From Polyangiaceae bacterium (GTDB taxonomy: Bacteria > Myxococcota_A > Polyangia > Polyangiales > Polyangiaceae): a stretch of DNA of 64,000 nt. The position numbers and the translations under genes were made by a program. The DNA lies in assembly GCA_025936045.1 (NCBI GenBank), contig JAICUB010000024.1, positions 41,382 through 105,381 on the forward strand, written 5' to 3'. Below the pieces are notes generated by a model that worked only from the letters and a program-made list of their open reading frames with translations, was not told where the DNA came from and did no database searches. Shown here piece by piece: positions 46,568-49,052 of the stretch. Positions within the stretch are counted from its first letter, which is position 1. The number at the start of each line of letters is the position of its first letter.

Positions 46568-46700
46568 GAAAAATCCTGATTCCGCGATCCAGGGGGCGCT
46601 CGACGACGTAACGCTCGAAGCTGGCCGCGACGAGAGCCTAGCAGATAGACTCCGCCGCCGAGCCCGCCTGAAACCGCAGGGGACCGGGCGGCATACGAAC

Positions 46701-46730
46701 GGAACTTCGCGTTGCGGAAGGCATCACGAA
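46701..46730 (+). promoter_or_regulatory. candidate ECF-type promoter (GGAACTT-N16-TCACGA)
   Basis: GGAACTT -35-like heptamer 16 nt from a weak -10-like element, about 45 nt upstream of precursor ATG. Confidence 0.3.
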
Positions 46731-46772
46731 CCGCTCGCGACGACTCAATTCGAACAAAGGACAAAAGAACAC

Positions 46773-47096
46773 ATGGCTTTCAATTTCTCGAAGACGCTCT
46801 CGACCGCTGCGGCCGCTGGCCTCCTGCTCGGCGCCGTCACCGCATGCGGCGGCAGCACCCCTCCCGCGGAGTCGCCCGCTCCGGCGGCGGATTCGGCGGC
46901 TCCGGCTCCGGCCGATTCGGCCGCGCCCGCTCCCGCGTCGGACAGCGGCGGCGCGGCGGCTCCCGAAGCCAAGTCGTGCTGCAAAGGCAAGAACGACTGC
47001 AAGAACAAGGGCGGCTGTAAGGGCGACGACAACAGCTGCAACAACAAGAACGACTGCAAGAACAAGGGCGGCTGCAACGCCAACTGCCCGAAGTGA
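46773..47096 (+). CDS. Cys/Lys/Gly-rich lipoprotein, putative bufferin-like RiPP precursor
   Basis: Lipobox VTAC, Ala/Pro linker, KSCCKGKNDCKNKGGCKGDDNSCNNKNDCKNKGGCNANCPK; directly upstream of DUF692 gene. Confidence 0.85.
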   Translation: MAFNFSKTLSTAAAAGLLLGAVTACGGSTPPAESPAPAADSAAPAPADSAAPAPASDSGGAAAPEAKSCCKGKNDCKNKGGCKGDDNSCNNKNDCKNKGGCNANCPK

Positions 47097-47161
47097 TGCC
47101 GGTGCCTCGCCAGTCCAGGCAACAGCCGATCACGGCTGGTGAAGCAGCGCTCACGATCCGA

Positions 47162-47194
47162 CGGCCGCGACGTTCCGCTGGGACGTCGCGGCCG
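47162..47194 (+). terminator. strong intergenic hairpin (attenuator/partial terminator or processing element)
   Basis: CGGCCGCGACGT-TCCGCTGGG-ACGTCGCGGCCG perfect 12-bp stem, 9-nt loop, weak T-tract. Confidence 0.65.
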
Positions 47195-47220
47195 CGCTCG
47201 TTTCAGCCGGAGCAGAGAAG

Positions 47221-48219
47221 ATGACCGAAGCACGCCGTGGTTCGCCCGAGCTCGGAGTCGGCGTCGGCCTGCGCGTACCGCATTACGGGCGTATCTTCGC
47301 GGAGAAGCCGCGCATCGATTTCGTCGAGGTCATCAGTGAAAACTTCATGGGGGCGGGCGGGCGACCGCGCCACCACCTCGAGCGCGCACTCGAGCTTTAT
47401 CCGCTGGTGCAGCACGGCGTATCGCTCGGCATCGGCGGGCCCGAGGAGCCGAGCCGGGCCTACCTCGAGAGTCTGCGGGAGCTCGTACGGCGAACGAAGA
47501 CGCCGTGGGTGAGCGACCATTTTTGTTGGTGTGGCGCTGGGGGCGCGCACCTGCACGATCTGTTGCCGCTGCCGTTCACGCCGGCGCTCGTGCGCACCGT
47601 TGCCGACCGCGCGCGCAAAATTCAGGATTTTTTGGGGGTTCCCTTCGCGCTCGAGAACACGTCGAGCTACCTCACGTACAAGGCGAGCACGCTGCCGGAG
47701 TGGGAATTCATCGCGGAGGTCGCGGAGCGCGCCGACATCGGTTTGTTGTTCGACGTGAACAACGTGTTCGTGACGGCCTATAATCACGGGCTCGATCCGC
47801 TTCGGTTCGTCGAAGCCGTACCGGTCGAGCGCATCGTCCAGATCCACCTCGCCGGACACACGAACCTCGGCACGCACATCATCGACACGCACGACGGGCA
47901 CGTCGTCGATGCCGTGTGGGATCTCTATCGCCTCACGATCGAGCGGGCGGGCGCCGTCTCCACGCTGATCGAGTGGGACGACGCGATCCCGGAGCTCGAG
48001 GTGCTGCTCGCCGAAGTCGAGCGCGCGCGGAGCGAACGCGACCGAGCGCTCGACGCGCGCCGCCGCGGAGGCTCGACGCTCGACGCCGCCGTGCGCGCCG
48101 CCGTGCGCGCCGCGGCGCGCGCGAACCCCGGGGCGAACGCGGTCGAGCGCCGCGGCTTTCCGCAAGGCGGCCCGCGCGAAAGCGCCGGCGCCGAACGCCC
48201 GAACGAGGCGGCCGAGTGA
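47221..48219 (+). CDS. DUF692-family multinuclear non-heme iron oxidase (MNIO, MbnB/BufB-like)
   Basis: GVGLRVPHY, DFVEVISENFMG, HGVSLGIGG, SDHFCWCG, HDLLPLPFTP, LENTSSYLTY, LLFDVNNVFV, IHLAGHTNLGTHIIDTHDG, LIEWDDAIPEL. Confidence 0.95.
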   Translation: MTEARRGSPELGVGVGLRVPHYGRIFAEKPRIDFVEVISENFMGAGGRPRHHLERALELYPLVQHGVSLGIGGPEEPSRAYLESLRELVRRTKTPWVSDHFCWCGAGGAHLHDLLPLPFTPALVRTVADRARKIQDFLGVPFALENTSSYLTYKASTLPEWEFIAEVAERADIGLLFDVNNVFVTAYNHGLDPLRFVEAVPVERIVQIHLAGHTNLGTHIIDTHDGHVVDAVWDLYRLTIERAGAVSTLIEWDDAIPELEVLLAEVERARSERDRALDARRRGGSTLDAAVRAAVRAAARANPGANAVERRGFPQGGPRESAGAERPNEAAE

Positions 48220-49052
48220 CGGACGCCGCCGCGCTCCAGGCTCGAATCACGACCTTTCTGCGCCGGCGCAAGGACCTTACCCACGACGAGGAAGCGCGCC
48301 GTTTCGCCGAGGAACACCTGGGCGCGAGCGAGCGGCTGTCGGCCGTCGAACAGCTCGAAATCTACCGCGAGCAGTTTTACCTGCGGCACACGGCGTCCCT
48401 CGTCGAGGATTTCCCGGGCGTCGGCGGCATCCTCGGGCAGAGCGACTGGGATCGGCTGGTGTGGGACTACCTCGCGAGCGTGACACCGACGAGCTTCGAC
48501 CTCGGTGACCTCGGCGCGGGGTTCGCGGCGTTTGCGGAGACGTGCGACTGGCTCGGCGAACGGCGCGAGCTCGTGGTCGATATGGCACGCCTCGAATACG
48601 CGCACACGGAAGTGTTCGACGCACCGAATGCGACGCCGCTCGATCCGGGGAAGCTCGGCGCCGTGCCGGACGACGCGTGGGAGCAGGCGTGCCTCGTGAC
48701 GGACCCGGGGCTACGCTTGCTCGGCTTGCGTTACCCGGTCCTCGCGCTCCGACGCGCGATCCTCGAGCGCGCCGAGCGAGCCGACACGAGCGCGCTCGCG
48801 CTGCCGGCGCCGAAAGCCGGATGTTTCGCCGTGCACCGGCGAAACCTCGCGATCTTCCACGACGAGCTCGCGCCAAACGCGTTCGCGCTCCTCTCGGCCC
48901 TCGGCCGCGGCGAGCCGCTCGGTCGCGCCTGCGAGAGCGCGGCGCGCGACGGAGGGGTCAGCGTGGAGTCGCTCGGCGCGGAGCTCGAACACTGGTTCGC
49001 GACCTGGGCGGCGCACGGATACGTGGTGGACGTCGTGATCAGCCCGAAATAG
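48216..49052 (+). CDS. DUF2063-like putative DNA-binding/MNIO partner protein (BufC-like)
   Basis: LSAVEQLEIYREQFYLRHTASLVEDFPGVGGILG; GTGA overlap with MNIO gene. Confidence 0.88.
   Translation: MTDAAALQARITTFLRRRKDLTHDEEARRFAEEHLGASERLSAVEQLEIYREQFYLRHTASLVEDFPGVGGILGQSDWDRLVWDYLASVTPTSFDLGDLGAGFAAFAETCDWLGERRELVVDMARLEYAHTEVFDAPNATPLDPGKLGAVPDDAWEQACLVTDPGLRLLGLRYPVLALRRAILERAERADTSALALPAPKAGCFAVHRRNLAIFHDELAPNAFALLSALGRGEPLGRACESAARDGGVSVESLGAELEHWFATWAAHGYVVDVVISPK

Follow-up and report, generated by a model that had tools for sequence, protein, structure and literature searches.

What does a cluster made up of a Cys-rich prolipoprotein gene, an MNIO gene and a partner gene produce, where does the product reside and what switches the genes on? 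The cluster examined here lies in a stretch of 64,000 nucleotides (the window), part of a 6.37-Mb draft genome that has Polyangiaceae and other Myxococcales MAGs as its closest named relatives. The answer that we consider probable is a bufferin/captophorin-type MNIO operon whose product would be lipid-anchored, controlled by an ECF/NrsF system and used to chelate a soft metal. Judged from the sequence, the operon, the lipobox, the families of the enzyme and its partner and the conserved promoter are all in place.

The operon and its conservation

The bufABC-type operon occupies 46773-49052 on the + strand of the window and runs from the precursor through the MNIO to the partner:

46773-47096, + strand: bufA-like precursor, a 107-aa Cys-rich prolipoprotein (ORF with ATG start; BufA2 NF050166 E=8e-4, below cut-off; orthologues in relatives)
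47221-48219, + strand: bufB-like MNIO maturase (PF05114 E=6e-101, 337.5 bits; NCBIfam BufB NF050167 323.5 bits, above the equivalog cut-off of 310; metal-site residues conserved)
48216-49052, + strand: bufC-like partner, DUF2063 plus RRE-type domain (PF09836 51.7 bits, cut-off 27.2; AlphaFold2 model matches TglI and NGO1945)

The original prediction was an MNIO RiPP operon of the bufferin type with a prolipoprotein precursor, and ORFs, profile searches and synteny showed that all of its parts are present. It did not include the 8-Cys core, the Cys-Lys specificity residue of the enzyme or the conserved ECF-type promoter described below. Both the PF05114 and the NCBI BufB profiles agreed with the proposed DUF692 identity of the enzyme, the PF09836 score and the model agreed with a DUF2063-like partner, and the GTG start of the partner gene does overlap the MNIO stop as GTGA. 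The operon had been drawn from 46690; the operon stood but that start did not, since the precursor ORF begins at 46773 and 46690 lies in the promoter. As also proposed, no DoxX gene adjoins the operon in the window, nor is one conserved beside the orthologues. Neither a transporter nor a copper gene was conserved beside the operon in the orthologue neighbourhoods.

Synteny extends to Polyangiaceae relatives, in which the three genes and a divergent M24 peptidase gene are kept together, arguing that the operon is not a chance arrangement. The order precursor-MNIO-partner is retained in nearly all loci of the clade. At the 14 Polyangiaceae-clade loci examined the M24 peptidase adjoins the operon, frequent neighbours being NamZ, FolP and a sigma-54 response regulator; the neighbourhood reads as vertical inheritance at a stable site. 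The peptidase was considered as a RiPP protease and set aside, because NamZ and FolP stay nearby too, which reflects stable synteny rather than function. A plasmid origin was also dropped, as the precursor had no plasmid match. One related locus (L131), with an MNIO 52% identical to that of the window, is on a contig labelled as a Klebsiella pneumoniae MAG; the label is probably a binning error.

A promoter motif shared with other genes

46669-46695, + strand: predicted ECF-type promoter of bufA, with -35 TGAAACC (46669-46675), a 16-nt spacer and -10 CATA (46692-46695)

The motif GAAACC-N15/16-C(G/A)TA was found post hoc by aligning upstream regions. In a scripted count it preceded bufA at 13 of 14 loci in the group, that of the window among them, and was also present in L068, a deeper relative; mononucleotide shuffles produced it at a rate of 0-0.5% per locus. 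The only conserved promoter motif of the operon is this one before bufA. The strict motif had 4 matches in the whole genome of the window and the reversed control had 0, while in eight genomes of the genus there were 43 matches compared to 19 for the reversed control, a modest background. The motif was present on the sense strand upstream of 10 of the 17 MNIO genes in the genus and missing upstream of the other 7; there was no match antisense or with the reversed control. Of the ten MNIO genes that have it, five are paralogues outside the window-type operon.

Directly behind the motif are also msrA (2 genomes), genes for YceI-like lipoproteins (4 genomes), a 163-aa secreted family (4 genomes) and a GYRDM-repeat secreted family (3 genomes). 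At L133 (814-1491) the start codon of a lipoprotein-type MsrA lies 9 nt past the -10 of the motif, and L150 has the same arrangement. The 163-aa family is found at L135 (1549-2040), L154, L171 and L177 and the GYRDM-repeat family at L138, L147 and L149; the members scanned, those of L135 and L138, had no match in Pfam. L197 and L199, from two genomes of the genus, are other MNIO operons with a DoxX gene behind the motif and NrsF-like genes nearby.

A candidate ECF sigma/NrsF regulator

On contig C57 of the window's genome (G000), an ECF gene stands ahead of genes for an NrsF-type protein (29.5 bits, cut-off 26.8) and a thioredoxin-like protein (L195 1279-3119; G000:C57:98500-102500), and the motif lies 35 nt before the annotated ECF start. 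ECF orthologues in five other genomes of the genus (69-89% identity) all have the motif. It was found 35-83 nt upstream in 6/6 orthologues of the one ECF-NrsF pair and in 0/6 paralogous ECF-NrsF loci (36-43% identity). Another ECF gene of the window's genome, between two NrsF-like genes at L196 (G000:C66:114500-120500), has no motif. The simplest reading is that the operon would be controlled in trans by the C57 ECF-NrsF pair.

This arrangement resembles the Caulobacter SigF-NrsF regulon in having an ECF sigma factor with NrsF, a -35/-10 layout with an N16 spacer and MNIO operons as targets. In Caulobacter, SigF acts at GTAACC-N16-CGAA before two DUF2282-DUF692-DUF2063 operons, that is, at Buf1 (DUF2282) targets, and the system responds to chromate and cadmium (PMC3511200). 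In contrast, the motif here is GAAACC-N15/16-C(G/A)TA, the target is a Buf2-like lipoprotein operon and msrA also has the motif. The ECF16 consensus is (T/C)GTAAC-N17-CGAA, and ECF16 systems respond to HOCl in Brucella (PMC8315932). The window motif has the same spacing and the AAC/C core, with GAAAC and C(G/A)TA where ECF16 has GTAAC and CGAA. The Myxococcus copper sigma factor CorE was also considered as the regulator; it is the SigF/ECF16 type that fits by layout. Antoine et al. reported sigma and NrsF genes for Buf1 clusters but none for Buf2 clusters (PMC12452194). The novelty lies in the ECF/NrsF control and the shared regulon, both of them predicted.

The genes that share the motif (msrA, YceI-like and thioredoxin-like) are as compatible with oxidant stress as with metal stress. 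The system might then mainly defend against reactive chlorine or other thiol oxidants, or against another metal, instead of buffering copper, and we give this alternative considerable weight while judging it the less probable. It would account for the motif before msrA, the YceI-like lipoproteins and the operon with a thioredoxin-like protein, and it agrees with the inducers of ECF16 systems in Brucella and Caulobacter. However, the 5TO peptides examined to date bind copper, and metal and oxidant roles can coexist.

The gap between bufA and bufB

47162-47194, + strand: hairpin between the precursor and enzyme genes, with a 15-bp stem and no T run after it

The gap between bufA and bufB is 124 nt, and in many of the orthologues, though not in all, the intergenic region is likewise folded. 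If the hairpin were a terminator, bufA would not be co-transcribed with bufBC. The length of the stem and of the gap would suit a terminator, as would the hairpins followed by T runs of several orthologues, but the hairpin of the window lacks such a run, gaps in orthologues are as short as ~40 nt and the sole conserved promoter motif sits before bufA. A hairpin that reduces read-through, giving more precursor than enzyme, fits equally well, and we consider separate transcription unlikely. The hairpin may set the excess of precursor over enzyme, or it may terminate transcription.

The enzyme and its partner

Residues H65, H100, E145, D178, H209, D222, H224, E251 and D253 of the MNIO are at or near 100% conserved among 82 sequences, and, after known MNIO structures, we take these His, Asp and Glu residues to be the metal-binding set together with the catalytic Asp. 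The enzyme reads LIEWDD at D253-D254, where an Asp follows the proposed base Asp253. MNIOs that act on Cys-Lys precursors have Asp for Phe250 of FonB, beside the proposed base Asp249 (PMC13097082), and Asp is at this position in 55 of the 82 related sequences. An Asp at the specificity position would fit the NDCK motifs of the precursor, which is suggestive, not decisive. In an MNIO tree from a quick search without bootstrap, the window's enzyme falls inside a supported clade of 8-Cys lipobox operons (SH-aLRT 98-99).

The partner scored 31.5 bits against the HvfC equivalog, below the cut-off of 142. Its AlphaFold2 model (pLDDT 92.5, 18 homologues) matched TglI in TglHI and Neisseria NGO1945 (3DEE) in a fold search, the match to the RRE protein TbiB1 being far weaker. 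A PDB sequence search with BufC gave nothing useful.

A precursor with a lipobox

46773-46844, + strand: Sec/lipoprotein signal peptide, residues 1-24 (conforms to the PS51257-type rule; conserved in orthologues)
46845-46847, + strand: lipobox Cys25 codon, predicted lipid attachment site (invariant in 12/12 aligned orthologues)
46848-46976, + strand: Ala/Pro/Asp-rich linker, residues 26-68 (length varies from 19 to 46 residues in the group)
46977-47093, + strand: 8-Cys core with Cys-Lys motifs, residues 69-107 (CCKGKNDCKNKGGC...CNNKNDCKNKGGCNANCPK; eight Cys invariant; profile match to canonical Buf2)

The N-terminus of the precursor reads MAFNFSKTLSTAAAAGLLLGAVTA-C25-GG, with Lys7, then a hydrophobic stretch, then AVTAC; after Cys25, the Cys residues are at 69, 70, 76, 82, 89, 95, 101 and 105. 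A signal peptide and lipobox (AVTAC) on a 107-aa Cys-rich peptide had been predicted, and this was borne out. By the PROSITE PS51257-type prolipoprotein rule, for which the charge window was relaxed slightly, Cys25 qualifies as a lipobox Cys. Cys25, Gly27 and the eight Cys of the core do not vary among 12 aligned orthologues, whereas the linker does. The rule picked out 28 of the 68 related precursors located upstream of MNIO genes, among them every precursor in the 8-Cys clade of the window. Lgt and LspA are both encoded in the window's genome.

The anchored topology had been called unusual, a view that did not hold up. Lipoprotein signals are predicted for ~16% of Buf2 bufferins (PMC12452194), and the MNIO-modified RiPP-lipoproteins DybA and NedA have been produced in E. 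coli, NedA being tri-acylated and 12 Da lighter (-12 Da) (PMC12636315); the topology is therefore not new. Like DybA (chryseobasin-like) and NedA (oxazolin), the system pairs an MNIO with a lipobox precursor, but lipidation by the general lipoprotein pathway is demonstrated for those two and predicted here, and the core motifs (CPACGMG in DybA, EGKCG repeats in NedA) and the hosts are different. It is improbable that signal peptidase I cleaves the precursor and leaves the product free in the periplasm like the characterised bufferins: V-T-A ahead of Cys25 is readable as a type I site and many related precursors have no lipobox, yet Cys25 and Gly27 are kept where the linker is not and the whole 8-Cys clade conforms to the lipobox rule.

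Related loci show other forms of the precursor. L063, in the same MNIO clade, has lost the adjacent precursor, and the corresponding genome has a homologue elsewhere. A sister group (L067, L070, L075 and L078) has 7-Cys lipobox precursors that end TSCPKG, without the promoter motif, and at several of these loci a TrmB-like regulator gene is kept close by. A second MNIO locus in the window's genome also has a lipobox precursor, ending AGCGPGTCG and of the CxxxxC family, a family with only two core Cys and from a different MNIO clade. At this locus (L184 2131-7240; G000:C47:46000-56000) a YceI-like lipoprotein gene is followed by the precursor, the MNIO and a DUF2063/NGO1945_C partner. A Ser/Thr kinase-FGE-sulfatase protein is encoded after the partner, and in five relatives, too, the next gene after the partner is that of the kinase-FGE protein. 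A partner-kinase-FGE fusion was not supported, as a stop separates partner and kinase in 4/5 relatives and the two are in different frames in the fifth.

Relation to the Buf2 bufferins

The precursor scored 19.5 bits against BufA2 NF050166 and missed the equivalog cut-off of 60, and the model was matched by 11/12 orthologues (best E=2.8e-11). Comparison by hhalign with eleven canonical 6-Cys Buf2 precursors gave a probability of 98.4 (E=9e-15), with an alignment through GKNECKGKG; beyond it, the window family has GGCNxxCPK and canonical Buf2 has GWVxxxxxECxxKGG. The core, which carries NDCK motifs, has eight invariant Cys where BufA2 calls for 6 or 12 conserved core Cys. By these sequence comparisons the precursor is a Buf2 relative with an 8-Cys core, no plain member. 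The operon is real and conserved, and encodes an 8-Cys variant of the Buf2/Cys-Lys captophorins that is predicted to be lipidated.

The features shared with Buf2 bufferins (BufA2/Buf_6/12Cys; Cys-Lys captophorins) are the signal peptide, the Cys-Lys motifs, the order bufABC, a BufB-type MNIO with Asp at the specificity position and a DUF2063 partner. Unlike them, the window's operon has an N-terminal Cys pair and the GGCNxxCPK end in its core, a precursor under the NF050166 cut-off, no adjoining DoxX gene and an ECF-type promoter.

The shortfall against BufA2 also bears on whether the peptide is modified at all. An unmodified metallothionein-like lipoprotein could hold metal through the free thiols of its eight invariant Cys, the adjoining MNIO having another substrate. 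We think this very doubtful, since the three-gene order persists through nearly all of the clade, the specificity residue of the MNIO suits the Cys-Lys motifs and the layout is common to related 5TO precursors. Copper binding and 5-thiooxazole have been demonstrated for relatives, and by analogy both would be expected of the window's peptide.

A model for the operon

Modification, lipidation, the metal and control by the sigma factor are the parts of the model that we infer. A SigF (ECF16-like) ECF sigma factor, restrained by an NrsF-type anti-sigma whose gene lies elsewhere in the genome, would transcribe the operon when triggered by metal or oxidant stress in the envelope. BufC would present the precursor and BufB would turn some core Cys, probably those in Cys-Lys motifs, into 5-thiooxazoles in the cytoplasm. 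The product would be exported by Sec, lipidated at Cys25 and cut by LspA. The flexible Ala/Pro linker would keep the Cys-rich head in the periplasm, where it would chelate Cu(I) or another soft metal.

A broader proposal, about as apt to fail as to hold and perhaps slightly more so, is that one ECF sigma/NrsF pair in the Polyangiaceae runs a dedicated envelope-surface defence made up of several lipid-anchored MNIO-modified peptides (8-Cys Buf2-like and CxxxxC), a lipoprotein methionine sulfoxide reductase, YceI-like lipoproteins and unknown secreted proteins. If this is true, lipidated RiPPs would form one coordinated branch of the response to metal or oxidant stress. The operon offers a defined example, open to testing, of a bufferin-type peptide that has an unusual 8-Cys core and is predicted to be tethered to the membrane rather than free. 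It would also connect Buf2-like operons with a SigF/NrsF-type regulator, as has been reported for Buf1 clusters but not for those of Buf2. Through the shared promoter, further genes become candidates for a stress role, among them those of two secreted families that lack known domains. The promoter also predicts inducers for a class in which few physiological triggers are known beyond the Proteobacteria.
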